A stretch of DNA of 64,000 bases from Owenia fusiformis (lineage: Eukaryota; Annelida; Polychaeta; Sabellida; Oweniidae), in the NCBI GenBank assembly GCA_903813345.2, contig CAIIXF020000007.1, forward strand, positions 687,730 to 751,729, in the 5' to 3' direction. A program made the position numbers and the translations under genes. Each line of letters opens with the position of its first letter. The stretch's first letter is position 1. The notes under the pieces were generated by a model. The model had not been told where the DNA came from. It saw nothing but the letters and a program-made list of their open reading frames with translations, and did not search any database. Below, one piece after another: positions 2,467-28,500 of the stretch.

Positions 2467-5400
2467 CTCAAAAATATCATTCTGAAGCATAAAAACAAGA
2501 AGAAACCATGGGGCAATGACGCTAGATAATGTCCTCTGATGAGGAGCCAAAAGGTGGCGCCACACTCACACCACGGAGCATTAGATCCAGGAGAAAAGAT
2601 GCTGTGAGTAGTAGAGCAACAGAGCCGTCATATGACAGTGACGGCTCCAGCATAGAGAGTGTGTATGATGAACGCTACCAGGGAAAAGAGGTGGTGTATG
2701 TTAAAGATGAGGCTACAACGCTGGCTGATGTCGGAGGTCGTCTTCCGAGCCAATCAGATGAAGGCACAACACCTAGTAGGCTCTTGCTGGTCTCCAGTAA
2801 GATAAAAAACATTGGAACTATACAGAATGCTATTGTCTCAGGGGTTTGTTTCATGAGTTACAAATATGAAAGTTCTAATCTGGAGTCTATAATGGGTAAG
2901 TAAAACATGAACTAATTGTGGGATTCTTGGATGGTTATGGCAAGTGATTTTCTAACCAATTACATAAATGTGACATTTTTTCATTAAAATAACATGTTTT
3001 ACCTGTTTATCAAATATCCTCAGTAAGCTCTCCAGAATAATAAAAAATATCAATGCCTGATATGATTTGAATCATATCTTTATTGGGCACTAAGTGAAAT
3101 GAACAAAAAAAGTCATATTCATCTTAGGCTACATAGAAAGAAAGCCTACGGTATATGGAGATATTTTATGGAATATTCATGATTAAATCATGTTTTTTAG
3201 TTTATTTTGACAGAAAATGTCATGTGTTTATTCATTAGCAATTTACTGTTTTGTTTAAATTCACATTTTAGTTCTTCATCTCGGCAGTAATTAGTTCTAG
3301 CATAGGTTGGCATGGTACTAAATATGGAGGTTTAACGAAAGATGAAAAAATTTCATCCTCTCATTTTTCCACTAAGACAAAATAAAACAAACAGAATTTA
3401 ATGACTAGTTTAATGATTTCTTGCTATTTCAAGGTAATTAATTAATGATTATTGTTGAGTCGACACTCATACTCAGTCATCACTCATACTTAACCATAGC
3501 TAAAACATTTACCTGTGAAGATTCTCTCTTATCTTGCCTCAAATCACAGTTATACTTCATCGTTAAGATTCAAATAGACAACTAAGTTCTTTCTTATAAT
3601 ATCTTTGATGTTACAACCTAAGATTGAAACTATGCAATTATTTTTCTCAATTTTGCATAAAATATGACAACCTTTGTTTTACCTATAGGCTTATTTATAC
3701 AATGCTAGACCAAATTGTGGACATACGGTTTATTCAATAAATCACTAATGCCTATATACTCTAAGAGCGAGGAGGAAAATTCTTAATAAATGGAGTATAG
3801 TTGGTTTGGCAGCATTTTCAGTTAGGGGGAAGTCTTGGATGAAAATTCTACCTAGGTGATAGCTTCACAGAGTGGTACATAATTCTTTTTTTCAGGGATT
3901 AGCCCCCCACCCCCCAAAATAACCCCACCCCGGTAAAATAATTTTTTCATTCTCAATAACTTTAGATATCTTGATGTTTGTAAGTTACATACATAGACAT
4001 TATATATATGAATCATTTGAAAAATAAATAATGCCAATCACTCCTACAGAATTTGAATAATAGTACAAAGTGTGTACCCCAGGGGGCAAATTCGTGACCC
4101 ATTTTCTCACTATTTAGAGCCTCACTTTTCAATCAGACACTGGAAGACATTGGAAAAATTCACCTGAAGTGCCCAGTAGCAGACCTATAAGCCCTGAAAG
4201 GTTCAAATTAATTGAATCAGTATGAGCCAAAAAAAAATTGTTGATTTTTTGAAAAATTTGACATTTTTGAGAGGCGTGATTTTGTGTATGACTATAGCTG
4301 AGGCCTATGGTTTCTAGATCTATCCCTCTTTGATAATAAATATGGTTTTGAAGTATGGAACTAAGATGTAAAAAATAATCAAAATAGGTTTTAAGGAAGT
4401 TAAAAGTTTTAAACAAGTTCAAAATTCGAAGAATTGTACAATATCAGGTCTGAATTTACGAATTTTAGGTAAGACCTTAGATGAGCCTTAGATTTTTCAC
4501 ATCTGTCCCCTTTTGATGGTTTTTATGGTTTTGTAGTATGGAACTAAGATGTACAAAATAATTTAGATGGATTTGAAGGTTTAAGGATTTTAATCGAGTC
4601 CAAAATTTGAAGAATTGTACAATATCAGGTCTGAATTTATGAATTTCTGGTATGACCTTGGACGAGCCTTACGTTTTTTACATCCTTCCCTCTTTGATGA
4701 TATTCATGGTTTTATAGTGTGGAACTAAGATGTAAATATAATGTAAATGAATTTTAAGAAGGTTTAAGGATCTTAATGAGTTCAAAATTTGAAGAATTGT
4801 ACAATATCAGGTCTGAATTTACGAATTTCAGGTAAGACCTGGGATGGGCCTTATATTTTTACATCTGTCACTCTTTGATGATATGTATTGTTTTGTAGTG
4901 TGGATCTAAGATGCAAAAATGATTAAGATGGTTTTGAAGAGTGTTTAAGGATTTTAATGAGTCCAAAATTTGAAGAATTGTATAATATCAGATCTGTATT
5001 TTTGAATTTCACGTATGATTGTGGATGACCCTTTTGTTTTTTACATCTATATTTTACATCTATATCCCCCTTTGATGATATTCCTGGTTTTATGGTATGG
5101 AACTAAGATGTAAAATATAATTTAGATGAATTTTTAGAAGGTTTTAGGATTCCAACAAGGTTTGAAGAATTGTACAATATCAGGTCTGAATTTGCAAATT
5201 GTTGGTAAGACCTTTGGATGAGCCTTATATTCTCTACATCTGTCCATCTTTGATGATATGTATGGTTTTGTAGTGTGGAACTATGATGTAAAAAAATAAT
5301 TTAGATGCGTTTTAAGAAGGTTTAAGGATTTAAACAATTTGAAGAATTGTACAATATCAAGTCTGCAATTAACAAATTTCAAGTATAACCTTGGTTGGCC

Positions 5401-8400
5401 CATATGTTTTTTAAACCTATTCCCTTTTCATGATATATTTGGTTTAGTAGTGTGGAAATATGTAAAACATATTTTAGATAGGTTTTAAAAAAGCTTAACG
5501 TTTTAAACAAGTTCAAAATCTTGGCGTATTGTACAATATCAGAAATTAACGAATTTAAAGTATAAACTTGCTTGGCCCTTATATTTTTAACATCTATCCC
5601 TTTTTGATGATATATGTATATATTGTTTAGTAGTGTGGAGCTAATATGTAAAACATAATTAAGATGGGTTCTAAAGAAGTTTAAGGATTTCAACAAGTTC
5701 AAATTTTTATGAATTGTACAATATCAGAGCTGATATTAATGAATTTTTGGTATTACCTTGGACGAGCCTTATGTTTTTTTACACCTATCCCTTTTTGATG
5801 GCATATATGGTTTAGTAGTGTTGAACTAAGATATTAAACATAAGTTAGACAGGTTTTAAACAAGTTTAAGGTTTTAAACAAGTTAAAAATATGAAGAATT
5901 GTACAATAACAGGTCTGGAATTTATTAATTTTAGGTATAACTTTGGATGGCCTTATTCGTTTTTTACATCTATCTCTCAATGATTATTATATAATATATG
6001 GTTGGAAATATATAGTAGTGTGGAACTAAGAGGTAAAACATAATTTAGATGGGTTTTGAGAAGGTTTAAGGTTTTAAAGCTGTTCAAAACTTGACAAATT
6101 GTACAATATCATATCTGACATTAACAAATTTCAGGTATATATCTCTCTATGATGATATATATGGTTTAGTAATATGGAACTAAGATGTAAAACATAAATT
6201 TAGATCGATCGGTTTTAAGGAAGTTAAAAGGCAGAATCAGATCTATAGGGGTGATAAAATTACAAGCAACATGTCCAATTCACTACCAATCTATTCCTTA
6301 CAATCTAAAATACAATATCTTGAAAAAGATTCATGATGTGTTAAAAACTGATGAAGTTATAATGGATTCAAAGTGCAAAAATGGGGGAAAAGTGTTTAAA
6401 TACTCCCAAAATAATAAGAATGGTAACCATTCTTATGGAAAAATAATACATTATTGTAGAAATCTTTAGTTTTCCTACACTAAAGTGTGCACTTTGGGGA
6501 TTTTTAGCAAATAGACATGAAAAGGAATGACATAAGCCAGAAATATTCAAAAATTTAAACAATTTTTTGTTTGGCTGCTTGCTGGATCTGATTCTCTCTT
6601 TAAGGTTTTCAAGAAGTTCAAAACAAAACAAATTGTACAATATTAGGTCTGAAATTCTTAACCTCTTTGATGATTTACATGGTTTTGTAGTGTGGAACTA
6701 AAATATAAAACAAAATTTAGGAATTTGGGGTTTTAAGGAGGTTTATATTTATTACTTATTGCTAAATGATTATCTAGAAATTATCATCATTTTGCATTTT
6801 TTATAGTATTAAAAAACAGGGTAACCATCAATATTTCATAAATTTCATTTTTATTGGGATCAACTTCGGACTATCATAACTTTGCACCTCTACCCCCAAT
6901 CACCTTGATCTTTACACCAAAAGGTGTCAAATATCTGTGGCTCAAGCTAAAAATAATAATGATAGCACAAGAAAAACTTGCAAAAAGTACCATTTAAAAA
7001 ACAGAGGGCTAGGTCAATTTGACCCCCCCCCCCTCCCCTGCAGACATAAGGGTTAAACTTCCTTAAAACCCAAAATTCCTAAATTATGTTTTACATTTTA
7101 GTCCCACACTACAGAACCATGTAAATCATCAAAGAGGTTTAGAATGTAAAGAGCATGAGGATCATTCAAATCTATACCTGAAATTTGTTAATTTCAGACC
7201 TGATATTGTACAATTTGTCAAGTTTTTGAACCTCTTTAGAACCTTAAACTTCCTTAAAACCCATCTAAATTATGATTTACACTTTAGTTCCATACAACAA
7301 AACCATATATGTCATCATAGAGAGATATATGTAAAAAACATAAGGCTCATCTAAGGCTATACCTGAAATTTGTTTATTTCAGGTCTCATATTGTACAATT
7401 TGTCAAGTTTTGAACTTGTTTAAAACCTTAAACCTCCTTAAAACCCATTTTAATTATGTTTTACCTTTTAGTTCCACACTGCTAAACCATATATATCATC
7501 AAAAAGGGATGTTAAAAACATAAGGGCCAACAAAGGTTATACTTGAAATCTGTTAATTTCAGATCTGATATTGTACAATTCACCAAGATTTTGAACTTGT
7601 TTAAAACATTTAGTTTTTTTAAAACCCATCCAAATTATGTTATACATATTATTTCAACACTACTAAACCAAATATATCATGAAAAGGGATAGGTGTAAAA
7701 AAAACAAGAGAACCAACCAAGGTTATACTTGAAATGTGTTAATTGCAGACCTAATATTGTACAATTTTTCAAATTTTGAACTTGTGAAAATCCTAAAACC
7801 TTCTTAAAATCCATCTTAATTGTTTTTTACATCCTAGTTCCACACTACAAAACAATACATATCATCAAAGAGGGACTGATGTAAAAAAAATAAGGCTTGC
7901 CCAAGGTCTTACCTGAAATTCATAAATTCAGACCTGATAGAGTACAATTCTTCAAATTTTGACTTGTTAAAATCCTTAAACCTTCTTAAAATCCATCTAA
8001 ATTATATTTTACAGCTTAGTTTGTTACTAAAAAACCATAAATATCATCAAAGAGGGACAGATATAAAAAACATAAGGGTCATCCAAGGTCATACCTGAAA
8101 TTCGTAAATTCAGACCTGATATTGTACAATTCTTCAAATTTTGGACTTATTTAAAACTTTAAACTTCCTTAAAACCCATTTTAATTATTTTTTACATCTT
8201 AGTTCTACACTTTAAAACCATATTTAACATCAAAGAGGGATGGATCTAGAAACTATAAGCGTCAGCTATAGTCATACACAAAATCACCCATCTCGAAAAT
8301 GTCAAAATTTTCAAAAAATCAACAATTTTTTTCTTGGCTCCTACAGATTCAATTAGTTTGAACCTTTCAGGGCTCATAGGCCTGCTACTAGGCACTTCAC

Positions 8401-10513
8401 ATGAATTTTTCCAATGTCTTCCAGTGTCTAATTGAAAAGTGAGGCTCTAAATAGTAAGAAAATGGGTCACGAATTTGCCCCCTAGGGTACACACTTTGTA
8501 CTATTATTCAAATTCTGTAGGAGTGATTGGCATTATTTATTTTTCAAATGATTCATATATATAATGTCTATGTATGTAACTTACAAACATCAAGATATCT
8601 AAAGTGATCGAGAATGAAAAAATTATTTTACCGGGGTGGGGTGTTTTTGGGGGGTGGGGGGCTAACCCCTGAAAAAAAAGAATTATGTACCACTATGTGA
8701 AGCTATCACCTAGGTAGAATTTTCATCCAAGACTTCCCCCTAACTGAAAATGCTGCCAAACCAACTATACTCCATTTATTAAGAATTTTCCTCCTCGCTC
8801 TTAGAGTAATATGTGTTATATCATCAAGTTCCATTCATGCAAACATCTTTTATATTTACATATGGTTTTTGTCAATACATGTTTTCTATGGTAATATTAT
8901 AAGGTGAGGATCAACTTTGTATCACCGGCACTAAATCTTGTCTCAATATTTACGTTCATCACAATTACATGAGTTATCTTGGTAATTAGATCACAAATGA
9001 TATCAGATGAAAGAATTTGATTTGGACATTCTGAAGTTCATCAATTAGGAGACAGTTTGGGTGGTGTTTATAATACAGTTTTTACTCATGTAAGATATAA
9101 TATAGTTTAAGTGAGTAAAACATATTTTTACATTAAAAATTATGAATAAAGGGTTATATATAATATAAACCTAAAATATATTTTCAATACAGAAGAATCA
9201 GTCATATCATTGGAGAACATTCAGAGTAATGAATTGACTTTACAAAATATTATATGTTAATATGTTTCTTCTTATTATAAACAGGTACCATTACATATCA
9301 CAATGATATCAAAATTGAATCTCGAAATGTCTTCATAAATACACAATTTATTTATTTTCAGCAACATTGAGACAAGCTTTGAATGGTCAGAAAGTTGTGT
9401 CAGTGGCCCTTATTTTACATGGTAGTGGCACTTCTATCAACATATGTGGCAAAGATGAGAAAGTAAGTTCACAAGTACTTGTGTACCTTGTTCTTGGATG
9501 ATGGTCACGTCCCAGGTCACGTATATCCCAGAATGCATTTTGTCAAAATTGTTTTTACTTGCCTTTAAATTAGATGACTATATTTATGTGTGGAATTTTC
9601 TCTATATTAATTTTGCACTTTATTTTACATGTGATCCATTTCCTTCCTGATAGACCGCATGCACAGGATGGGAATGTGACTGTCTAATTTTGGAAGGAAC
9701 TGGAGCAAGACATTTTACAAGATACATCAACAATTTTGTATAACTTATTTTTGAACTTAAATTATTTTTCAACTTGAAAGCTGCGTAATTGTGGACAAAA
9801 TAAACCACTCTTTGCAATGTTAAAATCAAATATTCTTTTGCAGTAAATTTTTTGGAAGAAAGTTCTCATTGAAAACAACTTTAAACACAAAGTCATATAC
9901 ACTTTGAAATATCTATGATTACATTTACCAAATTAACATGAAAGCTTTTAAAAGTATTGAACTCAGGACACGTTGATATGAAACATAATTATATTTCAGA
10001 TCCTGACCAAGGACAATACAAATGACACCAATATTCGAGAGTTCTTCAAATGGCTTGTTGAAGTCTGTATAGATAAATCAAATGAGAATGCCCGCATTGA
10101 TTTCCTTGCTTGTCAGGCTGGCCAGGGTACAGAGGGCACTGTCATGGCTAGGGAGCTGGAAACCTATTTAGGGGTATGTTTCTTTTCATTTAAATCCACG
10201 ATCTTAGTAAATCATTCTGAAAGAGCACAACAAATCAGTTTGTCAGGAAGGAATCTGGGAAAACCAATAAACGAATACCAAAAACCAAATATTACCTCAC
10301 GTTAGTAAACTGGTAATTACACTTAAAATATTTTTTAAAAATTCAGTGAGAACCATTTTCATTTAAACATATCAGTTTAAGATAGATGTAGTAATACTAA
10401 ACATTTTGTTTTCCTGACCTAATGAAATTATTCTTGTAGGTTCCAGTTGGTATCTGTAAGGACATTTGTGGCACTGAATTGCATATAGGAGAGGAAATGG
10501 AAGGTAGACCAAA
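2467..10513 (+). CDS. Exons 1-4 of the NEK9-like gene: N-terminal caspase-fold, DUF4347-like domain
   Basis: Residues 1-80 are Ser/Asp/Glu-rich and probably disordered. From about residue 84 the order is: a hydrophobic strand (RLLLVSS), a segment ending [16 protein letters not shown], strand [10 protein letters not shown], an acidic helix region, strand [14 protein letters not shown], then ETYLGVPVGI. This order matches DUF4347 (clan CD, caspase-like), where a strand ends in His-Gly and the next core strand ends in a Gly- or Ala-Cys before a small-residue turn. The candidate dyad is His142 and Cys194. Vertebrate NEK9 has no such region; its kinase begins near residue 50. The assignment rests on motif order recognised by eye. 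Whether the dyad is active, and on what substrate, cannot be told from the sequence. Exon phases (1, 0, 0, 2) join cleanly to the kinase exons. Confidence 0.65.
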
Positions 10514-13500
10514 GTAAGTAGTGTTTATACCTGTCATCTGGCATGTATTTTCATATCCTAATAATAATAAGAATTAAACAAGCCTTTTGACCTTTTTGAC
10601 AATCTTCTTTCATTTTTAACTGATCCTTAGTATTTTAAGATTACCTATCAAGTCAAAGGTTTAAAAAGATATTGCAAAGCAATAATTAAATATACATACA
10701 CTTACCCTGTCCATATCATGTTCCCCAGCCTTCCTTGTGAATTAATTTTTGTATCAATGAGCCTTTTCCAGTTAATGAGCTTTAAATGTTGGTAACAGTC
10801 TTCCCCACTCTGAATAATGTTCAGCCTCTCATTATATTGAATATTTTTAAAATTGACTGATAATTGGGTGCAAAGTTTAGGTGAATAGGTAGCGATACAC
10901 TGAATTGGCTTAATAACTCGAAAGGCTTCTCATTGATGTTTCTTTTTTGTTTTATGTTCTTATTTGATTGCCTGGGCTTGTTTAGTTTAGAAAAGGGCAC
11001 ACATTTTTTTTAAAAAACTAACCATTCAATATCAAATCACTTATCAATTCATAGAGGCAATCGCATGAACAGGTTAACTATCATCAATTTGTGCTTGATC
11101 CTTAAAAAACAATTTGCCTAAATTTATATGGGATCAGCAAGCATATACCTGAAAACATTCTCAAAAGAATAGCTTTTTCATGTATTTGTTTCATGTATAT
11201 TTCATGTTTCAAGCAAATCAAGGTCAGTGTTATTGTCCGCCTTTGTGTATTTTTAACCATTATCACATAATTATTTGTTGTATAACTCAAGTAAAACCTG
11301 TCTAATCCGAACACCTTTGGGACCAGCCAAAAGTATTTCGATTGGCAGGTGTTCACATTTCAAGTCTTTTTTAATATGGACATTTATGACAGATTTTAAA
11401 GATGAGACACAAAAGTGTTCACTTTGGGAGTTGTTCTGATTAGAGAGGTGTTTCGATATACAGGTTTTACTGTAAATTACTGTCAATTTGTGTCATAACA
11501 TTGATTCAAAGCAACACCATGAACCATCATTTTGTAGCAGTACTCCACGCAGCTATACCAGCTATATATAAGTGAACAATGTTGCAGGAAGTAATATCTT
11601 TAAATAATATATGATATCTAAGTGATTTAGAGTTAAGGAACCAATGGACATCTGAACAAGACACAAAGAAGAATGGAAAATTACTCAATATAGGAATCAT
11701 AACTGACACAAATGTTTGCATGTCACATCATGCTTTTTCAAATGTGCCTCTAAATTCAAGGAGTGGTAAAAAACAAAAACAAGGATCATCTTTTTCAAAT
11801 ATTGATGCAGATATTATTATATAATATTACGTTCAAGATGCAATTTCTAAGTAAAGGCTTCAGCAAAAAAAGTCAAAAGAGCAATAGGTAAATACAAAAT
11901 ATGAAGAAATACATCATGCAACATTGATTCAAGTTGATGTTAATATTTAGTTCTGCAATAAAAATACACATCATATGTAAATCATATGTTAATCAGCACT
12001 ATTGTATGAGAGCCATTTCAGTTAAAGACTCATACTTCATTTTCTCATAATTTGGATTAATGTTTGGAATAAGTTTCAAGTTATTCGTTTTTTTTTGCAT
12101 GAATGTATCAAATATTCCTATCATATTTAGTGCACTGTCTACTGTTTATTGTGATTTATACATGGTTAATGGGCAGCATTTTCATAAGGAAAGGGTGAGA
12201 TTGAGGGTGGGTGCGAATGGACTCATGGAACAGAGTTATACAAGAAATGTTTCTTTTACTTTCAGCTTTGCTGGGGACTTGTACTTCAGACTGGAAAAGT
12301 TGAAGAACTGGACTGGGAATAATCAACAGACTCTAGCTGGCTTTGAGAAGATAAGGACTGTGGGGAAAGGTATGGAAACAAGGTGTTCATTAAATCATTG
12401 AGTCCATGATGATTCGCGTGATGCTCATATATTTAAGATCATTTCAGTACAATATCATATGAAATACTGTCTAGAATTGATCTCGAGAAATCATAAGATA
12501 GTGGACATTTTTCTAATAATTTAGTTTTCAAAATTTTAATTGATATCTTTATTCCAGTAAGTGTAATATTTCATTTGTGCTATGGCTACACCAGTATTCA
12601 TTGAATGGTATCATATATGTTAACGGTACACACTGTACAATGTATATCTACAAGATAGTAAAAATTGCAGGGGCATATGGTGCTGCTGTTTTGTACAAGA
12701 AGAAAGATGATGATTCATTGGTCATCCTCAAGGAGGTTAACATGCATGACTTGAATGCTAGTGAGAGACAGATGGCCCTCAATGAATGGAAGGTCCTAGC
12801 TATGTTAGACCACCCTAATATCATCAGTTACTATGACAGCTTTGAGGAAGATGGAACATTAATGATTGAGATGGAATATGCAGATGGAGGGTTGGTGGCT
12901 TTTATCATTTCACTTATTGTTGACACATTTAAGGAAATGAGAAAGTCATGGAAACACAGATGCCCCAGTTTCTGTCTCATGGGGAATGCCATATTAAGCA
13001 TCGTTAAAATTTAAAGATATTTGGTATCATTAACTTTAAAATGATGTTTAAATGGGGACTGAAATCTGGAGTGCTGCAGAATTCAAGTTTTGTTAGCTAT
13101 TTTGGACCTCAGAATTCAGAAATTATGGCTCCTTTTGCCAGACCTGTACTGTAACATTCAAATTTTTCTAAAAATGTCTGATAATTTTTTTTTTAATCAG
13201 GCTGTGTATAACACAGGTTCAGCAAATAGTATCACATAAACCCGTATTTTATCCCTCCTAGTTAATAACCTCTATTTATTCCAGGACACTGGCCCAGTAT
13301 TTGGTGAGAGATAAACCAATGGAAGAGAAGGAGATTCTTTCAATTTTCCAGCAGATTGTAGCTGCACTGAGACATATACACGAGCACAATATTTTACACA
13401 GGTAATCATAAATCAATGAATAAATCTCACAATAACTTGATTGGACTTTTGAACAATACATACTAAGCCTCCTCTCTCTCAGACATTCGTCTTGCACATT

Positions 13501-16500
13501 AAGACATGAAGTGTACATTTCAGCATCAGATCCCCACTGGGAAATTAATTTTAATGTCTACAGTTTTATAGGTTAATTTGCTTCATTCGTATTTATTGTA
13601 CACCTTCATTGATGATATTCCAATGCATTCCAATAACACAGATTATCAATACACTGAAACCTGGGTATAAGGGAAACACATTTTGTACTTCAATAGTGTT
13701 CTATTTGGATGTTTTACTTACAGATGTGTTCCACTTTACAGATTTGACTGTATTTGACTACATCCACTTTTGATTGAGAACTAATATTTTTCAGAGATTT
13801 AAAAACTGCCAATATATTTATGACCAAAGAGGGAGTAGTCAAAGTTGGAGACTTTGGAATATCAAAGATGATGTCAACTGCCACCAAAGCTGCCAACACT
13901 GTACTTGGAACACCTTATTACATCAGCCCAGAAATGGTAGGTGCTACCCTATTTATAACTGTGATGCTAAACTATATTGTAATATTCTCTAAAAGACAGA
14001 GATTTCAATTGTGTGTACACAGAAAAGACAGATTTGATGGAACATCTTTGTAAGGTACCAAGTCCATTGGCCTATAAGTTGATGAACTCTCTCTGTGAGG
14101 AACACCTGTCTACTAGGAACAAAATTAGCCAAATACTGTGCAATTTAAAGACTACACATGATGATTATATCAATTCAGAATTCCTGGTGTACGGAAATTG
14201 CTTTATTACTCTCTTAGTGTTTAATTTCACCTAAATACATATTTTTTATATATTTTGACTTTATAGTGTGAAGGCAAGGCGTACAATGAGAAGTCAGACA
14301 TTTGGGCATCAGGCTGTATTCTCTATGAGATGGCATGCCTCACTAAGACCTTCGAGGGCTCCAATCTACCTGCCCTTGTTAATAAAATTATGAAGGTTAG
14401 AGAAATTGTGTTATTTTCCTCTCTTTTTGATTTTCTCATAATTCAAAGGAGTTCCGACAATCTCATTGCTAGAATGGTCAAATTGGACACTTCTGTTTGT
14501 AAATCCATAGGATATGGGTTAAGAATAAAATAACCCCTTGTGAAATTATGATACTGGCCTATTAATTTCTTACATTTAGATTCTAAAAGTATATATGAAA
14601 GTAAAGAACATCATCGGCCTTACTTAAATGTAATTTGTCTGAACTAAAGAAATATGAGACTAGTACAAATAAATAGTACCATAGTATGGTACATGTATTA
14701 TAATGCAGATTTGTCATGGTAACAATGGAAAGAGAATACCATACATCTTTGTGACATCACCTTCTTTATTTACAATTGTTCTGATTTAGGGTCAGTTTGC
14801 CCCTGTGAAGGGAAACTACAGCCCTGAATTCAAGATGCTAATAAGGGACATGTTGCAAAGAGAGCCAGAATATAGACCTACTGCAAGTGAACTCATGTAC
14901 CAGAGATTACCCGAGGTAAGAATGTTAAACCAAAAATATATGAACTGTAAAATATGTAAAGTGGAAACCTGCATGTAGAGTGGAATGTTCTAAGTGTTCC
15001 TACTCATTTAATAAACCCACTTAATATAAAATGAGCACTTAAAAGCATATGAACATGTAAGAACATATGAACACTTATATTAAATGAACCTCTGTAAGTG
15101 GAATCGTCACAAGTGAGAGACTATTTTGAGACACCAAAGTGTTCCACTTACACAGGTTTTACTGTACATAATTTCTAAAGGAATTTCAAAATGGATAACA
15201 TTCACTTTAAAATGGTCGTTCATTAATGTACCGTATGCTCTCATTTTTTTCAAATAAACATCCACTGACTTTTCCCAATTCAATGTTTAATTAATAATCA
15301 TCACTCACTGTTCTCCAGTTAATGAATAGCTATGAAGATCCGACTACAGACTTTGATGAGGATCTCATGATTTCTATAGATGGTGCTCATAAGAAACGTC
15401 GTACAAGGTCAGTATTAGATGACGTGTAATGGAGCTTTGTTTAATTGCTTAACACTGTGCTTAAATTCAATGAATTGCTATTAATGTGTAATTGTTGCAT
15501 TCTAACTTTGCATGATGTACATCCTAAGTGTCATACCTCAAAAATTGATGTTATTTTGATGAAGAGTTACAGTTGATAGCAGTTATTATATATTGGTGAT
15601 ACACATATACATCTTCCACTTCAAATAAGGGGCCTTATATGGTGGTGGAGATTTTTTATGCTCCTTGTTTTAGTCATAAATTACATTTTTATAAGAACAT
15701 TAATGTTTGGAGAGACGTTATTACCTCCAATTGCTCAAAGATAAAAGGATCACATAGATATACAAATGGACTTGAATGGACTTCATGTCTATGATGAATC
15801 TGAATTTTACATTGGGGACCTTCGTGAAAGATTTCCACCATATAAGACGCCTTGAGCATGATAGGACTGCATGGGCATACTGTTGTGACATCATACAACA
15901 ATGACTTATGAATTTTTATAATAAGCTAATATGCCCTAATTGTTTGCACCATGCTTAATATTGTTGGTTACCTACATTGCTTGCATAGCCCTACTGTCAT
16001 GGACAAAAGGTAAAATATTGTTTGCCCCTTGATATATCAACTGTCAATGTCGAATAGACGTCACATGTTAAACTGTATGTTTTTTGTTGTGAAGAGTGGA
16101 TTGATACTCCCTGTCTTTTGTTTCTTGATTGTTTAAATGTGTGCGGTTTTAAATGATTTACATGTATTCTTATACATTAGTATTGATTATATATACATCT
16201 AAAAAGTGAGGGAATCATTTAATTTTGATGTTTCTGGTGCATTATACTTTATTACAACTAATCTTATCTCTGATTCTTCCATGTCCCATTAATATTCTTA
16301 CACTGTGGCATTACTTGTTCTGCTTGTTCTTTCCCATCTGCTCTGATGAACAACTTTGTGCCTTTTTGGATGGACAATTTTCAATAATACACACCAAATC
16401 AGTCCTGTTTGGCATACTATGTACATTTCATAGTACATGTACCTGTAATCTCTGTGACTAGATACAAGTTTTCCCTATATATTAATATGATTGTTCTACT

Positions 16501-19500
16501 TGAGTGTCGGCGATATCACTGACTAGTTTATGCTATGTTCACGTAATTCTGACTGGTTTATATTCCGGTCACTTTACCCAATGAGTGTGTTTTGAAGTGT
16601 GTATGTTTTCACGATTCACTCACTTGTGATACAAGTAGTTGCACAAAGGTTGTGTTTTGTCTGTACCACTCACTTTACTTGGAGAGAAAAGGAACGGAAA
16701 TGTTAGATTTAAGAATTCTGACAAAAAATTATACTGCTATATAAACAATAACCTATGTACATGTCCTGTTTCGTAGTGTGATATATGTGTAATGACTACT
16801 ATTTCTTATGTGTAATGACTACTATCTTCTCAAAGAACCAACATTGTTTAAAATTGCAAAGCAATCTTTGTTTTGCCTGACATTTGTCACATCTTTATGA
16901 AGTTAACTCCCTGAGTACTTGTATTTTGTTTTCAACCCAAAATTGACAATTGAATTGTATTTTCAGGTCAGTGTTATATTACCTGCAGACCTTTAACATG
17001 CAGCTACACCCAATAGACTTGATGCATTCAAAGATCAAAATCAGAGAGGTATGTTTTATGTATCAGATTTTTGGGGGCAAAAATTAAATTAAAAATTACA
17101 CCATGCAAGAGCCTACATTATATTATATTATATTATATTATATTATATTATATTATATTATATTATATTATAAGGACTATTGAATCTATTTGTTGACTCA
17201 ATGTGTGCTGACCACTACCCCACAAAATATCAGTGGATGATCTGTATTATAGGTGGCAGTAGGTGGAGATCATGTGATAGTGGTTACTATGGAGAGGATG
17301 GTGTTTACATGGGGTGAAGGTAGTAAAGGCCAACTGGGACATGGTAGTCTTGAATCATCAGACATGCCACAAATGGTAGAGGCTCTCAAAGGAAAGTCAA
17401 TCACCAAGTAGGTCTTTACATGTAGTGTATAATTTAATGTATTTGCTGATCATATATGTTACTTAAGGAAAAATCGTTGTCACTACTACTAGACTTTACA
17501 CAGAAACCCATAGTTTGATTTCTAGATGTACAGATATAAACTAGAATTAAATGTCACCAGTAAATAAATTTTTATCTCCAGTATTTTTTTTAAAAATGAA
17601 GATGGATATGAGAATATTAAAATAAAAAGGCATTATAATGACTGTTTGATGAGTATCACTGTACTCTCCAGGGCATGCTGTGGTGATGGCTTCAGTGTGT
17701 TTGCCAGTGACAATGGTATTGTAATGACATGTGGAGATGGGACACTCGGCTGTCTTGGTCATGGTGACTGGTGCTCTACTTCAAGGCCTAGACTTATTGA
17801 AGCCCTGCTTAGGTAAATCAATCTTATTATTAAACATATTTGTATGAACTGGAAAGTTATGGCACATTTCTCATTGGTAAAAATAAATAATAACAAACAC
17901 TTTATGGTGTAATGCCCTTTAGTGTAACAGCATTTTTATTGGCTCATCTAGTCTTGCTACAAGTCTTTCTGGTGACCCCCCTCCCCCTACATAGCTCACC
18001 TTAATAATCTGGCAAGATATTGGGGGAGGGGATCAATGAACTAATGAGGCATAAAAAATGTCATTTATATCAGTAGATAACTTGGTTATTATGTCTTGTA
18101 TACTCTTATTCTTGCAGTGTTGATGTTGTGGCAGTTTCTTGTGGGCCACAGCATGTGGTGGTTGTAGGCAGCAATGGGGAGATATACTCCTGGGGGAAAG
18201 GTGCACATGGAAGACTCGGTCTTGGCAATGAGGAAGACTAGTAAGTTATACTACCTGTGCTAGAGAAAATGTGATTTGGTGCCAGTTTGACACCACAATA
18301 TTGTAGTTTGTGAAATTTATGCACTGATTTTGTGAGAGATAAATTGTTGCCAGTAAGCAATGATAAAGTTTTGAAGAAAACTGATTTCTATTTTGTCTCT
18401 AAGCAAGATTAGAAATTAAAGAAATGTGTGATTTTAAATTTCAATTTGATATTTCTGTTGCAGTTGTACTCCAATGGAAGTCACACTCTCTGAGCCAGTG
18501 TTTGTACGTGAGGTTCGTTGTGGTATAGATGGCACTATGTTCCTGACAGATGTTGGGAGTGTGCTTGCTTGCGGGAACAATGAATATAACAAATTAGGTC
18601 TCAACCAGAGGCAAGGTTTTCTAATGGCTATGAAGAATATATTCAATAAGGTAAGTGTGGTGCGCTGAGGATAGGGGATAAGAGAGTTGGGCTAACTTAT
18701 CCGGTAGGATTTTTATGTCACTTACGCTAACTGCCTAAATGGTGAGATATTGTTCAGTTGTCAGCATTCGGTATTTTTAACAAATGACAGATGGTGACAT
18801 TTTGCATGTTACTGCCTTGTTACATGATGTTTTTAAAAGATCAGTTTGTCGGCTTTTTACATCACTGAAATGATCTGTTTAGTGTCTTGGTTAAATTGAA
18901 ATGTGTGTGGTGGCACTTGCTAGTTATTCTGTTGAAACATTTATACTTGGAATATTATCGATCAACTATATTTGCATAATTATTTCACATTCCAGACTGA
19001 AGTTGAGGGCCAAAAAGTGCCAACTGTTATCAAAGCCCTGACGAAGCATCGAGTAGTTGATGTCTCAATGGGTCCTAAACACTGTGCTGTTTTGGTAGAA
19101 CCAGGCCATGTATATACATTCGGCCGCAATAATGAAGGACAATTGGGTACAGAGAACACTAAGCCTCAGAATGCCCCAATTGAGGTCAAACAAGGCCTTG
19201 AGAGTAAAACTGTACAAAGAGTGCAATGTGGAGAGTTATACACTGTAGTTAGTACGACAGACAATGAGTTGTATTTCTGGGGTACTAGATATAAAACTCC
19301 TTTACCAAGTGGCAGTAATGGTACACTTGAATCTCAGAAGAGCATTGAAAGTGGTGTGTCAGAGGGAAATGAAAAGAAGGGCCATTCAAGACAAGCTAGC
19401 ATAACCAGTGTGAATAGTTTGAACAGTACAAAGGAGTCCTTACCCTCCCCTTCTCCAACTCCAGTCCCTGCAAACAGAGATGGTAAGTTTTTCTGTCCAA

Positions 19501-22500
19501 AAATCAATAAAGTCCAGTTTTTGGTATTTGTCAAGTTATATGACAATGTATACTTATGATTAGTAAAATATGTAAATTGTAACTTGTAAATTGTGTTAAC
19601 ATTGTAATCATCGTTCTAATTTCTGTATTTTCGCATCAAAGGCCTGTATACTTTTTGTTCCATCTGATTCCTAGTGATCACTACTAGTTACATATGATAT
19701 GTTTGTTCACTTTCAGGATCAGCCTCTAACAGACATGAAAGGACAGACAAGGGTGATAAAGGTGCAAGCAGTGACAGCACATTGTTCTCTAGTGCTGATA
19801 AGATAGAAAAGTTGAACCTCTCCAACTCAAACAGCACAGACATAAGTAGCAAATATGGATTCAGACCTATCAGTGAGTATTACCTCCATGTCCTGGGTTG
19901 GTGCAGAAATAAACACCACATCTTAAAAAGTGAACTTTATTTTGTGCTAATACCATTTATTTCAGATCTATTTATCATCGTACATATATTAAGTTATGGT
20001 TGTAGGTCTTTTTGTATTTGGAAGGGCAATTTCAAACACATAATCCTTGCAACTGTGGTGTCTTAGATTGTGACAATTTGCCTGTTTTATATATATCTTT
20101 GTGAGAAATAAATAGATAAATGTTTCTATATTTCAGGTAGCACGCCACGTCGTAGCCAGAGCGCTGGGAGCTCCAGGGATGGCAAAGACCTCAACAAGGA
20201 GATGAAGGAGAAGAGAGACAAGGAGAAGGATGAAAAGGAAAAACCTCCAGATAATGCTGACCTTGTCCTACAGCCTATACACCTACTCAGGTTAATGCCC
20301 ATCAGTTTATCTTTTACACTTTCTTAAGCATCAGTTTCAATGATTTATCCTATACACTTACTCAAACATCTGTTTCAATGATTTATCCTATACACTTACT
20401 CAAGCTTCAGTTTCAATTATTTATCCTATACACTTACTCAAATATCAGTTTCAATGATTTATCCTATACACTTACTCAAATATCAGTTTCAATGATTTAT
20501 CCTATACACTTACTCAAGCTTCAGTTTCAATTATTTATCCTATACACTTACTCAAATATCAGTTTCAATGATTTATCCTATACACTTACTCAAATATCAG
20601 TTTCAATGATTTATCCTATACACTTACTCAAGCTTCAGTTTCAATTATTTATCCTATACACTTTCACAGGCCAGTGCCCAAAAATTATCCCAGTGTCACC
20701 ATCCTCTCAAAATGACAACTTTTTGGTTATTTGTCTTTGAATGTTCTAAAATTACACTTTTGTGAATTATTCATTACATGCGAAACACTTATTTTATTCA
20801 AATTTTTATCTTGTAAAAAAGTAGCAGCCTTTGATATGTTTGGTAGATTAGCAAGAGTCACTGAATGCAAAGTTTATAATGTTGTGCATTAAGCAATAGT
20901 CTTTATATCTCAAGGTTGGTTACCATAGTTACTTTGTACACTATTATAATGAGCTATTTACTGTTCAATATTCTTCCACTATAAGGTAACCTGTAATTTG
21001 TTGTTCATACTATTTTTATAAATTTAGGTGTTATCATAGTCTGTTAATCTTTCTTTAATGACTAATATGTCATTGATTGTTTTAGGCTAGATGCTACTGG
21101 GGCCCACAGTCCTGCAGGGGAGATAGTAATCCTCTCCAACTTTGTGTGCCATGGAGAGAATCTGTTCCTGCAAGTAGAGACCACGGCTCCACCACCCAAG
21201 AAAAGAAGCAGGAAGAAGCGAAGTTTTAGGTTTGTACATATATTTATGAATCATGTATGTTGCTTTGTTGAATATCATTGGGATTAGAACACCAATCAAA
21301 AGGCAAATAATTGTTCATTATTTAGTTCCATGTGCCATTGCTGAAGTAGAGTTGGTGATACTAACATTTGTGGATTATAAATGGGAAAATGAATAAGTTG
21401 AGCTGGTTTCATATATATTAGTGAAATTCAAAATATTAATATAATGTGCATTTTACAACATTTAGTGAGAATATACATGCTACAATGGACATGTTAAAAA
21501 CTCTTCAAGCCTCCTCCAATATTGAGGTATATATACTCATAGTCAATTCACTCTGTCAATCCTATAGAAAGTCATCATCTCAGTTTCTCTCAATGTCTTT
21601 TACATTTTAGTTATCACTTCCAGTACAATAGGGATTGTCTCCAAATATGGTCAACGATTCAAATAATTTTCTGAATAAAACATGCCTTTCTCAAGTAGTA
21701 ATGATTATAATACAGTTCTCACGGTGTACAGCTATTAACATACTAAGAATGGCACCATTTGTTCCATTCTTTAGCTAATTAATAGCCTTTTCCACATCTA
21801 TGAATATTTGGACACATCCTCCTATTTGATTATTACCAATTTTGCTGGTCTCATTACTCAACAAGATTTTGGTAAAACTTATTCAATGCTAGGCGAAAAA
21901 AACATGCCATACCTTGTTTTAAGATCAATGAACCTTATAACATTGTCCCTGGCCTATTGAGTAATGAGCCCATTGTCACTCCTTCCTACACCAGTCACAA
22001 CCACAGCTGGTTGAAAGTTCTCCATAATACTACAGATATTTACCTTTGATACCTATATTAAATGGAGAACTTCAAACTATCCATGGTCACAGCAGATAAG
22101 TCACGTTCCCCGTATCACTTGTAGAAAGCGTGTGAGTGCTGATACACTAGAAGTACCTCATGGTAAAAAGCTTGTCCATTCAGCAGGCAGCAGAGATGGA
22201 GGGGATGAATACTCTTCTGAGGCCTCAGAGATTGACACCCAAGGAACTGTAAGTGACCTTTTAATCAGATTTGTTGTCACAGATTAACAGCTAATTAGAT
22301 TCATTAAATAGCCAATATAATAAGCACATTATTTGCCTCTCACTGGTTTGTTATGTCACCACCAAAAAGTGGTGACATATTGTTATGGACTTTGTTTTTT
22401 ATGAGGGCAGTTGGCATCTGTAAAAAAATGGTGGTGACATTTTGCATGTTAGTGCTTTGTTTATTCTGCTTCTGTATCAATGTTTGCTATAGCTCTTTGT

Positions 22501-25500
22501 GTCATTTTAGCTATTTTCTCATTTGAAACAGTAATTTTACAACCCTGAACTTTGAATCCAGATCAGCTTTTTTGGTTGTCTGAAAGAAAAATGTACATGA
22601 TTCGATCATGAAATATGATAATTTGAAAGTAATTGAAGCAATCATGTTAAATTCTGCCTATTAAGTCTATGTGGTGTGTAGCTTTTGGTGTAAATGCTTT
22701 ACAGTGTATGAGATTCAATAAAATATTATCATTTCACAGCCTAACTATCGCAAGAGCTTTCTGACACGGCTATCCCATAATAAACTCTCTATGCAGTCAG
22801 GGGAATATGGCACGGTAGTAATTACTTTACATTCTTTTGAAATGTCACAGTGGTCAGTGGTTCTAATGTTTTCAATAACATGAATTTTGACGAGTCTGGA
22901 TGAATTGTCTCATCAGAAGACAACAGGCAAAATTCAACTATCTCAGACTGTCAAGATTTACAAGTAACCCTAGCCAAAGTGAAATTTTAAAAGGCTCTTA
23001 TTGTTGCGTGTATTTATATTCATTGTGCATTTTATCAATTATGCATGGTGTCATTCTATACATTATGTGTAATACATGTTCAGTATAATAAGTTGTACTA
23101 GTATTCGTTAGCTTTTTAAAATGAGATCTCACATGCATTCTATATTTTAGCAAGTTTTTTATGATGGCATATGCATTTGTTAGCATCTTTTAGGAATTAA
23201 ATTTTTTTTAGTTCAGATGGTTTAGACTATTCATTGGTAATAGAAATTAAAAGAAATACAGGTTAAAGTCGGGCCTCTCTCCGAAACGCAATCTTAGGTT
23301 GTTCCCGGGGTCCCTGGTAATATTTTGTGCTTTAATGAGACAATTTGACAATTGTTCATTCAATTGCTCAGAGGTTCGCCGGTAAACAAAATTCTTCGAA
23401 GATTTCTAAATTTAGAATGTCATGTGACTAACTAAAAAGAAGTTAAAATAAAATCCCTTAAATTACAAGTGCGCATAACCAATGCCTGGTTAGTACAGTG
23501 GCAGAGTGCTCGGCTGTTACTTCGAAGGTCCGGGTACGAATCCCGGTATTGTCTTTTTTTATTCTTTTTTTAAGTTAATGGTTACGCTTTGATTTTACAC
23601 TTAAAAAAACGTTTATATCTATGTCAAAGAACAGGTCCATTTAACAGACTATTGGTCAACTTAGACTTTTTCAAAAAAAACTCATTCTTCCATTTACTTT
23701 CAAAACCGATTGCAAGTTGTAGATAAACCTTTTTTCTTGAGGTGTGCAATTTCAAAAAGTGGCATTAGTTTTCAGTATTTTTGAAAAATTGGCAGTAAGA
23801 ACCCCTATCACAAGGCTGTCTGAATATGGGTACACACTATGTTTACCATCAAAATAATATCAAAACTTATCATTACATAGAATTTAGTATATGGAACATA
23901 TGGCATGCAAGCATTCGGAGTACAACATTTTAAAAATCTAGCTATGTATGAAGTTTACCAATGCAAATCTGGAGAACATTGTCATTTTTTGTTTACTTTG
24001 TTATCAAGTTTTAGCATGGTGCTCATTTCCTTTCGTTGAAAATTTAACCATCAGCCCATTCTCCCACAAAAAAGATATTGAAACTGTATAATGCAGAGAC
24101 TGTAAAGTAGCTTCTCTGCAAATATCATTGTTGTGGGAGTTTGGGCTCACCACTAAATCTTAACTTTTGTGATGAAAATAAGGCTGACTGGTTTATGTTT
24201 TCAATATGGCTGCTAACCTGGGCATACATGTACACTACATAACTGCATGTACAGATTAGGCCATTCAAAATTAATTATATGTTGGCATTCTGATGAAGGG
24301 CCTTATATTAAAAACTACAAAACCTTTATTTATTTAAAGGGCTTTATATATTATTTACACAGGGCTCCCTTTTGAGAACTTCAAAATCCCATGTTTGCTC
24401 TTTGCTGATGATATTGTCCTAACTGCTGAATCTGGTAAAGACCTTGAACTCCTTCTGAACGTTGTTAACAGATTTGGAATAAAGTGGGGATTTAAGTTTA
24501 GCAAAAAGAAATCAAAGGTAATGGTCATTGGAAAAAAAGTTGATTCAACTAAACTGTGGAAATTTGGCGACCTAAAACTCTCTGAAGTTAATGTATATAA
24601 ATACTTGGGAACCTTTTTCCACAGGCACTTAAAAGATTCTCATCACATTGATGTACATGTATCTAAGAAATCACGAATGTTAAATGGGTACCTATCATCA
24701 ACTCTTACTAAACATTGCAATCTTAAGGGAGTAAATTTCGGCAAAACAATATATCACTCTATGATTGAGTCTGCAATTTTATCTGGATGTTCTGTATGGA
24801 CACTTACCAAAAGTAACATAGCTCAGATGAAGTCAATACAATACAGAGCAGCGCAAGCTGTTTTACAATTAAAGTGTAAACCCGCAAGACCAGCCTTATT
24901 GGGAGATCTCGGTTGGACTCCCATTGACCTCACAATTGAAAAACGATTGCCTACTTTAAATATCTAAAGTTTGACCTAGCCCATTCATCCCTACCCCATA
25001 AGGTTTTAACTCATTTGATAAACCAACATAGTGAAGGTAATGAAGCCCCTTGGAAATGTGTGTCTAACATAAAGTCTATTTTAATCAAGAGGGGCCTTGA
25101 TGACATTCTTTTTCGAGATGACTGTGAGTGGTACAGTACCTATGAAGGCATTTGTAGACAGGAACGCGCCACTAATTTTATTGATGACATATCCCATTAT
25201 AAATCTCTTAATACTTATTCCACTTTTAAGAACCATCCATACCAAGAAAATTATCTAAAACAAGATTTTGATTTTTATGGTGCTAGACTCAAATTTCTTG
25301 CAAGAACCAACAATTTTTGCCTTGAATCCAATTACTCTGTATGGGGCAAAAGTGATGGCAAATGTAAACTTTGTAGTTTGAATGTTCATGACGACTTACA
25401 GCATAGGTTGCTGCTGTGTGAACATTTTAAAGAAGAACGTGAATCCTTTTTCCACACTGTTTGTAAGCAATGTCCCTTCGATTTATTTTCTGATTTCATT

Positions 25501-28500
25501 AAGGGTAATCTGACTGAAAAATTGACCTATATGCTTGGTGATGAGACTTTTTCAAAATGGGGGCAAGACTATTTTAGATTATTTGATAGCATTGTAAAAC
25601 GCTTTTTAACCCAATTGTACAAGCCCAGAGATTTATGTCTTTCATTATTTTAGTATATGCAACATTGTTTTAAAGAAATTATACATGACTTTGTATTCTA
25701 TTCATATTGTATAGCTGTATGTAGCCGCACTGGATGATAATCCATGTGCCACTGTTAAAAGTGTTGGCAAATAAATAAATAAAAAAAATAATAGTGAAAA
25801 TGCAATAAAACAAAGTGGAAAGGCAAGTAACACCTCTTGATTCAGATGACCTTGTTAATGAAGACAATACTAAAGCTTATATACATGTAGTTTTTAATCA
25901 ATCTTGGAACTCATTTCAATGCAATATATTTCACGATCTCAATTCCCTCTGTCATTTATATGCATTACAAGTACAGAGTACATGGGAACATTTTGTTTTT
26001 TCTGAAAACATAGAATCTAGTGACATTAATTAGAAAATTCTTTTGAATGGCCTAAGTGTTTTTTCTCAAAAGGGAATAAGAAGAAATTATTTTAGGCAAT
26101 CTTTTGAGTGTCATGCCATTTATACATGATGCTGCCTTATATTTTATGATATTGAAATCCAAATATGGGAACTGCAAATTGGCAAACAACTTTAAAACTA
26201 AGTCTCCATACAGACATTTAATTTCAAATTCCAATGTAGATGCCAATGGGCATCTACATTGGAAATGGCCTTGTCATGGGTATTTAAAATAATAATCACA
26301 TCCCAACTCATAAAACATGCTTATATTAGGATACTGTTAGAGTCTCAAAAGGCAACAAGAACATTCATTTTTGAAACAGGAAAATGTATCCCCCCAAAAA
26401 TGGATACATTATAAAATTGCCGAATGTAAAACAGAAACGGCAACATGAAATTAGGAAATATACATCTAATTAAGATATTGAAGATCGATCTTAGTGGGCT
26501 TTAATATGGTAGTTGTCTCATGAGTGTCAGCTTATTGTATCAACTTTACTTTAACAAAACTCATAAACAAAATACGATAGATTCGAAGCTTTAAAATCTC
26601 AGAAGATATCCAAGTGCTTTGGATATCCCAGTATTAAAAGTTTTTAATCCCGGTATTAAACATTAAAATTGTAGATCAGTTGTAAATTAGAATTATATAA
26701 GGGGTGTCAGGTCGGCAATATTTTATTTGGTTTTACATTAGTGGTGTCAGGTCAGCAAACTTTTATTCGGCAATTACAATTTTAATCCAATTCAGAAAAT
26801 AAAGCACCCGGATTTTATACATGTTATACAGTATCTCTTCAGTCGTATGAAAATGGAAAAATGATTTATGTTCACATATTGCGTTTTGGAGAGAGGTATA
26901 GGCTTAATAATGCAAATAAGACATTTTATTTGTTATTAAACACTTCAAGTTTGTTTATTTAAGTATTGACACATCCACAATGACTAAGATAAACAATTTT
27001 GTAGTCATAACAACCATGATATTAAAAAAACATCACAGATTGTAAAATGTCCAATGGCATTGTGGACCATTTTAATCTTTGCCTTGACGACCTCCTGGAC
27101 GGCCCCCTGGACGACCTCCTGGACGACCCCCTGGGCGACCTCCTGGGCGACCTCCTGGACGACCCCCTGGACGACCTCCTGGACGACCCCCTGGACGACC
27201 TGGGCGACCCTTTGACTGACCTCCTGAGGAGTCACCTCCTGAGCGATCTCCTGGACGACCCCCTGGACGACCCTCAGGACGACCTGGGCGACCCTTTGAC
27301 TGACCTCCTGCACGACCTTTTGGGCCTTCTGACTGACCTCCTGAGGAGTGACCTCCTGAGTGACCAATTGACTGACCTCCCGATTGACCTACAGAATGAC
27401 CTTCTGAATGACTCTCTTGTTTCTTCCCTCGTCCCTTTGTGCCACGTCGTGCTTGGATGGCTATGATACAAGCCACAAACAAGATGACCAAAGCAATACG
27501 CATCTTGGTCATATTGATGGAATATCTTAAAAGTATAAATAAAAATATTTAAAAGCTATGATATACCAACAAAAATGATAATAGATTTCTTGATTTAAGG
27601 CATTGCTCAAACTAACACATTCTCAAAGATTCCCAGCAGGCTTTTACAAATTATAGCCCACCTGACCCATATACGAGTATTTTAAAAAAACACTCATGTA
27701 TTAAAAAAACAAAAAAGTCAGCATTTTTCTTAAAGGTAGTGACAAACATTTGCAAGGTAAACTGTGAAATATATGATATGTTCAAGACTTTTCTGAGTGA
27801 ATAAAAACATGTTTGACTTTTGTAATTGCAATCTATTCATGCTAATGTTACTATTGATTAATAATTGGAAACATTTTGTTAGGGAGGGCATCATTACGAG
27901 CCTCAGCTTTTTTTGTCCAATGAACTAAAAATTAATTAAGGTCATTAAAAAATGTGTTGGCAAAAAAGGTAGAAATACATACCAGTTGACTTGAATCAAG
28001 AAATCTTCAGTGAATATCCCTTCTTAGGATACTCTGTCTGGTTTCCCTGATATCCTCTGCTCTGTTTATAAGCTCTAACATAGCTACCTCAGGGACTTCA
28101 TAGTTACATAATTAAAAATAGGTAGAAGTTGTGTCGTGATCTTTAACAATAGGCTTGGACAAAGGTTTGTGGTCACGAAAACTTGGCAAACAATATTGGG
28201 GATTATGATATATACACTGGAGACCTCGTGATATTTGTCAATGGGTCCAGTTACTGTGAACTTCAAATAAACCTTCAAAAAAGCAAATATTTACACTGCA
28301 TTTGTAATTTATCACTAGTAGTCTATAGCCTTATTGTACTAAGGTTACAATTAACAAATCTTATTGCCATCCATCACATTATAAAAAACTTGATAGTTGT
28401 CAGTTACAAGATAACTTCCATTGATGACTATCAATTCAGGCATTAATGTTATTCTTGTGAAAGAGAAGGATGTGCTTCAGCATTATCTTATTTAACAAAG

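Follow-up and report, generated by a model that had tools for sequence, protein, structure and literature searches.

What is a domain of peptidase fold doing in front of a NEK-type kinase, and do the two belong to one protein at all? This question is raised by a stretch of 64,000 nucleotides from the polychaete Owenia fusiformis (contig CAIIXF020000007.1, positions 687,730 to 751,729 of the forward strand; hereafter the window), in which a first-pass annotation had recognized a caspase-like domain fused to a NEK9 kinase. Reading by splice phase, we obtained a gene model that extends from position 2529 to 32742, with 29 coding exons and 1481 amino acids (aa). The predicted protein comprises a disordered start, a DUF4347 domain that extends from aa 81 to about 255 and, past a linker of some 10 residues, a NEK-type kinase (from aa 265), RCC1 repeats, a low-complexity tail and a charged helix. 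An in-frame TAG (2523-2525) lies upstream of the ATG. We propose that this gene encodes a third NEK-RCC1 kinase, the N-terminal DUF4347 domain of which has a clan CD fold and would control the kinase, perhaps with its candidate catalytic dyad in use and perhaps in a cilium. We give this proposal, taken as a whole, an even chance of being right.

Linkage of the DUF4347 and kinase exons

The DUF4347 domain is distributed over the first five exons, all on the + strand. Exon 1 (2529-2895) encodes the disordered N-terminus (aa 1-80) and, from nucleotide 2769, the beginning of the domain; it is supported by the Pfam match and by the upstream TAG. Exon 2 (9362-9462) contains a strand ending in LILHGSG, with His142 at codon 9418-9420, and exon 3 (10000-10173) contains a second strand, with Cys194 at codon 10111-10113; both strands had been described in the first-pass annotation and were found as described. 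Exon 4 (10440-10513) continues the domain, and exon 5 (12266-12369) encodes its end, the short linker and the start of the kinase (aa 265, nucleotide 12342). The start and end phases of these five exons are 0/1, 1/0, 0/0, 0/2 and 2/1, and the frame is free of stops and continues through the kinase, the RCC1 repeats and the tail to the stop codon at 32742.

The strength of these junctions was judged with splice models trained solely on junctions after exon 6. The donor of exon 4 ranks 16th among the 3542 GT dinucleotides of the window. The acceptor of exon 5 ranks 20th among 3359 AG dinucleotides and is the best of the 105 AGs in the intron that it closes and the exon that follows. The weakest junction tested was the acceptor of exon 2, which is 25th of the 334 AGs in its long intron. 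A second line of evidence comes from ECT2L, an animal protein discussed below, the DUF4347 domain of which ends in YFCESKLQTW in the structure 11xu and in YFCTSKLNIW in an ECT2L-like gene of this genome. The window domain has an ending of the same type, YFxxxKLxxW, and it is encoded in exon 5, that is, in the exon with which the kinase begins. When the exon 5 open reading frame (ORF) was compared with the ECT2L ends, the ungapped BLOSUM score was 48; among 2899 ORFs of the window, two scored higher and two equally.

A different explanation is that there are two neighboring genes, with exons 1-4 forming a small DUF4347 gene of 239 residues and a separate promoter ahead of exon 5 driving the kinase. 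If the donor of exon 4 is not used, read-through yields EGRPK and a stop, that is, a stop after one residue, and a product of just this length. A 24.7 kDa "DUF4347 domain-containing protein" is tabulated for the snail Biomphalaria in PMC6744689, and in-frame Met codons are present upstream within the open frame around exon 5. Along with the read-through stop, two further results count against a fusion: exon 5 adds just 1.0 bit to the Pfam DUF4347 score (from 36.0 to 37.0), and the kinase exon was absent from the 28 ORFs displayed for a short hidden Markov model (HMM) built on the ECT2L end. A TAA behind a GTAAGT donor is, however, automatic in this phase. Two separate genes are also hard to reconcile with an exon 4 donor and an exon 5 acceptor that both rank high and join in phase, and with a domain end, common to ECT2L, that sits in the kinase exon. 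We consider the two-gene explanation very unlikely, although in a variant of it a short, domain-only transcript could coexist with the fusion transcript. The DUF4347 domain, the kinase and the RCC1 repeats are very probably encoded as one fused protein, and the earlier claim that exons 4 and 5 join in phase is thus borne out by the phase, the splice ranks and the ECT2L-type end.

Family, fold and relatives of the N-terminal domain

Residues 81-256 match Pfam PF14252 (DUF4347) with 37.0 bits (E 3.6e-9) in a single stretch that covers profile positions 1-160 of 164, for a curated cut-off of 24.6 bits; in a longer chain that includes the kinase start the score is 35.0 bits. The Pfam search that the first-pass annotation had called for therefore upholds its family assignment. 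An HMM built from 80 bacterial DUF4347 loci gave the window domain 23.5 bits, while the best of 2000 shuffles reached 9.8. In the alignment to this HMM, His142 falls on a column that is His in 79 of the 80 bacterial rows and Cys194 on one that is Cys in all 80, in agreement with the earlier suggestion that these residues occupy the places of the catalytic dyad. The bacterial loci had been gathered with a consensus query, in which His was present in one of six patterns and Cys in none. The 80-locus HMM includes one locus with a stop codon (L008); the alignments of 67 rows used below leave out this one and 12 others, the latter to lower the number. Thus score, profile coverage and the conserved His-Gly and Cys (H142, G143 and C194) all place the domain in DUF4347.

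The bacterial domains share the family and the His and Cys columns with the window domain and are 12-22% identical to it in the 67 rows. The spacing between His and Cys is 52 residues in the window domain, 54 in Tce1 of Pseudomonas and 43-45 in the bacterial rows. In the six bacterial ORFs that were read, five of them cut by the end of the locus, the domain is part of a longer, repeat-like protein, towards whose N-terminal end it lies, and no kinase was seen; DUF4347 also occurs as cargo of type VI secretion systems (Tce1). In four of these six ORFs (L007, L041, L078 and L044), as judged by eye, the domain is preceded by a short LEPR-x-[ML][FL]-like motif close to the N-terminus; L024 has LEER in its place and L016 lacks it.

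Relatives were sought more widely. A PF14252 profile search of the O. fusiformis genome returned zero candidates and missed the window gene itself, so that it is no proof of absence elsewhere in the genome. With the window domain as query all six matches fell within this gene, one of them to a pseudo-exon then contained in the query (see below), and the bacterial domain L041 found no match in this genome. Nothing meaningful was found in PHROGs or NCBIfam, there was no match in a plasmid collection, phages gave only E 5, and a comparison of the window domain with viral contigs and genome contigs found no relative.

The fold was examined with the bacterial member L041, which was modeled from an alignment of 67 sequences with high predicted quality (pLDDT 91.6, pTM 0.87). 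The best Foldseek match to this model in the Protein Data Bank (PDB), and the sole one below 0.001, was Tce1 (9qpe, E 8.8e-5), followed mostly by caspases (caspase-3) and legumain at E 0.0038 and above. With VIA-align, Z was 12.8 for Tce1 (rmsd 3.2 over 142 residues), 9.9 for SAVED-CHAT (rmsd 2.6 over 127 residues), 8.2 each for Csx29 and TPR-CHAT and 7.2 each for legumain, GPI transamidase chain K and caspase-3. As in the CHAT peptidases (Craspase TPR-CHAT and SAVED-CHAT), caspases and legumain, the His of the L041 model lies just past one strand and the Cys just past the next core strand; by sequence the window domain has no Pfam match to these families. Tce1 is PA0256, a DUF4347 protein according to an earlier paper (PMC8262886); the authors who describe Tce1 assign it a putative cysteine-protease dyad, His186/Cys240, with no activity shown for Tce1 (PMC13323088). 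Several points weigh against too firm a reading of the fold. The Foldseek matches to caspases are weak and are interspersed with a dehydrogenase (0.0073) and aminotransferases; an unrelated dehydrogenase reached Z 6.9 with VIA-align, and Z below 8 may mean only a common arrangement. Further, the model is that of the bacterial protein. The clan CD-type fold of the first-pass annotation is supported for a bacterial member of DUF4347, and the window domain would share this caspase- or CHAT-like fold.

The same annotation had placed the domain closest to bacterial DUF4347. The family was correct, but the nearest relative proved to be the DUF4347 domain of ECT2L. A search of PDB sequences with the window domain found only ECT2L (11xu), with E 0.0024, or 6e-4 when its first half alone was the query; chain A1 of this entry (904 residues) is presumably a mammalian protein, as judged from its length. 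The end-to-end alignment of the two domains, which are colinear over their full length, scored 116, compared with 8.5 +/- 4.8 for 2000 shuffles, none of which equaled it (z 22). The ECT2L protein, which presumably contains F-box and RhoGEF parts, differs from the window protein in having no kinase and in having lost the dyad: Asp stands at the place of His, and that of Cys is taken by either Val or Pro, according to how the two domains are aligned. Its stretches in 11xu score 61.2 bits against Pfam DUF4347 with 13 unseen residues set to X, far above the cut-off, so that DUF4347 in animals is not new. An ECT2L-like gene is also present in this genome (C11:9044006-9046862, L094 + L095), with His kept and Pro at the Cys place; its domain scores 78 against the window domain (shuffles 8.8 +/- 5.0). 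The joined exons of this gene gave no Pfam match, and its identity rests on other sequence comparisons. In the accessible open-access literature, ECT2L and "caspase-like" were not found together in any paper.

These relatives bear on whether the window domain could be an enzyme. Use of the dyad deserves consideration because both residues are kept here and both are lost in the ECT2L of 11xu. A priori, the same fusion could carry a pseudo-peptidase, a binding or targeting module presumably like that of ECT2L, in which His and Cys have been kept by chance or for structural reasons. The substitutions in both ECT2L domains are in keeping with this idea. So is the finding that, among 27 near-invariant columns of the 67 bacterial rows, 19 are changed in the window domain, which is also a point against our proposal, since the surroundings of the active site may then not work. 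On the other hand, just eight of the 27 are kept (H142, G143, C194, G202, G225, G231, L248 and E249), and both dyad residues and the Gly that follows His are among them. A bacterial ORF, L044 (Nitrospira sp. bin_25), contains a tandem pair of DUF4347 domains; by eye, His and Cys are both missing from the first copy and both present in the second. This joint loss suggests that the two residues work as a pair and argues against a pseudo-peptidase. We regard the pseudo-peptidase as a serious contender with somewhat less than an even chance. That the window domain still uses its dyad is about an even proposition, and that it has peptidase activity is somewhat less likely than not.

Place among the NEK-RCC1 kinases

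In the account of PMC12564199, NEK8 and NEK9 are the only human NEKs with RCC1 repeats. The window protein has the same succession of a NEK-type kinase (Pfam Pkinase, E 3.2e-65; best PDB matches NEK1, NEK2 and NEK7) and RCC1 repeats (E 5.8e-62), which places it in the NEK8/9 group. Unlike NEK8 and NEK9, in which the kinase is N-terminal and no DUF4347 was found, it has a DUF4347 domain in front. Through kinase and RCC1 exons we found two other genes in the same genome, one NEK8-like (C1) and one NEK9-like (C8). The NEK8-like protein starts with MDKYEK, a few codons past a stop codon, and the NEK9-like gene has a Met about 39 residues ahead of its kinase; the DUF4347 HMM found nothing in 1.5 kb upstream of the former (best E 0.8) or 6.3 kb upstream of the latter (best E 2.7). 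The window kinase is 56% identical to that of the NEK8-like gene and 49% to that of the NEK9-like gene. Compared with human sequences, the NEK8-like kinase is 79% identical to NEK8 and the window kinase 55%, while the NEK9-like kinase is 61% identical to NEK9 and the window kinase 46%.

A FastTree phylogeny of seven kinases, of which two had been assembled from exon matches and contain gaps, gave the NEK8/9 group a support of 0.962 and joined the window kinase to the NEK9 pair (0.813). This placement is what would be expected if the window gene were an orthologue of NEK9 that had gained an N-terminal extension in its own lineage. However, the NEK9-like gene on C8, with its short N-terminus, is the closer match to human NEK9, and we consider this orthology very improbable. 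Since closer matches to both NEK8 and NEK9 exist in this genome, the window gene is the orthologue of neither and is very probably a third NEK-RCC1 paralogue; further NEK-RCC1 genes in this genome are possible. The name NEK9 given in the first-pass annotation must be dropped, and the description of the kinase as mitotic is unsupported by any evidence.

The earlier claim of a new architecture can be retained in part. Parker et al. 2007 surveyed the Neks and reported an N-terminal kinase in all of them save some in Tetrahymena (PMC2031824); NEK10 departs from this rule as well, in having ARM repeats at its N-terminus (PMC12564199). A peptidase-fold domain before a NEK-RCC1 kinase would be an exception of a new kind, in which a single polypeptide combines a kinase with a potential protease. 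The passages on DUF4347 that were read in open-access papers contained no tie to a kinase; UniProt, InterPro and animal genomes lay outside this search, and orthologues may well be annotated there. DUF4347 in animals is already present in ECT2L and the single parts are all known. What appears to be new, in that we did not find it described, is their combination, a DUF4347 domain with an intact dyad ahead of a NEK-RCC1 kinase.

Possible role of the domain and other features of the window

The DUF4347 domain is most likely a regulatory switch, by analogy with other NEKs. It would end about 10 residues before the N-lobe of the kinase and control the kinase together with the RCC1 propeller and the C-terminal helix. 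In NEK9 the RCC1 part keeps the kinase inactive, and coiled coils dimerize NEKs, as stated in PMC12564199. In the window protein the RCC1 part would similarly be a lock, the tail helix, if a coiled coil, a likely dimerizer, and the clan CD-like module the new element. The dyad might be used in the cleavage of a partner or of the linker, or the domain might have evolved from a peptidase into a ligand-gated switch. A likely place of action would be the cilium or basal body because ECT2L and NEK8 are ciliary: NEK8 is described as such (PMC11974183), and knock-down of zebrafish ect2l is reported to produce shorter motile cilia in kidney tubules (PMC4199137). The tie of the window gene to cilia thus comes from relatives only, which counts against the proposal, and we put a ciliary role slightly below an even chance. 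These ideas also have a bolder form, which we think unlikely to be correct: animals would possess a NEK-RCC1 lineage, distinct from both NEK8 and NEK9 and missing in humans, with a working clan CD peptidase in cis; cleavage of the linker, of the RCC1 lock or of a partner in the cilium would switch the kinase, and ECT2L would be the dead-enzyme sister of this peptidase in motile cilia. The link between the unstudied domain of ECT2L and a version with an intact dyad makes the role of DUF4347 in ciliated animals testable by point mutants.

The remainder of the gene follows exon 5 on the same strand. Exons 6-10 (12671-14915) complete the NEK-type Ser/Thr kinase domain, with HRDLK and GDFG motifs; exon 11 (15319-15407) encodes a charged linker, and exons 12-17 (16967-19482) the RCC1 repeats and the start of a Ser-rich region. 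Exons 18-26 (19717-31147) encode the low-complexity tail, which was scanned from the last part of exon 18 onward and gave no Pfam match above cut-off there. Exons 27-29 (31330-32742) encode the charged helix, coiled-coil-like by eye, and the stop codon.

One additional exon, at 9654-9737 (+), had at first been included by eye. Its 28 codons are open in phase 0/0, but its acceptor (-3.9) and donor (-2.4) were the lowest of the 29 acceptors and 29 donors in that model, and the Pfam DUF4347 score was 30.9 bits with it and 37.0 without. Among 1142 intronic stretches of fitting length with splice scores at least as high, 102 were likewise open in phase. This pseudo-exon was therefore rejected.

Intron 1 contains a 5-kb fold-back element (3757-8808), the arms of which (3886-4259 and 8305-8678) are 93% complementary; its interior holds many diverged repeats in both orientations, with 81 inverted pairs. 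In the intron after exon 22, at about 24340-25650 (+), a LINE reverse transcriptase-like stretch with a FADD-like motif was recognized by eye alone. Two tRNA-like stretches (2065-2135 and 23460-23550), for which ARAGORN reported no tRNA gene, are by eye probably tRNA-derived SINEs. Finally, three similar ORFs on the - strand (39253-39927, 49796-50395 and 61668-62309) match the domains of neurotransmitter-gated ion channels (ligand-binding domain, E 5e-23 to 1e-26; membrane domain, E 6e-19 to 2e-20) and are probably Cys-loop receptor genes arranged as a tandem cluster.

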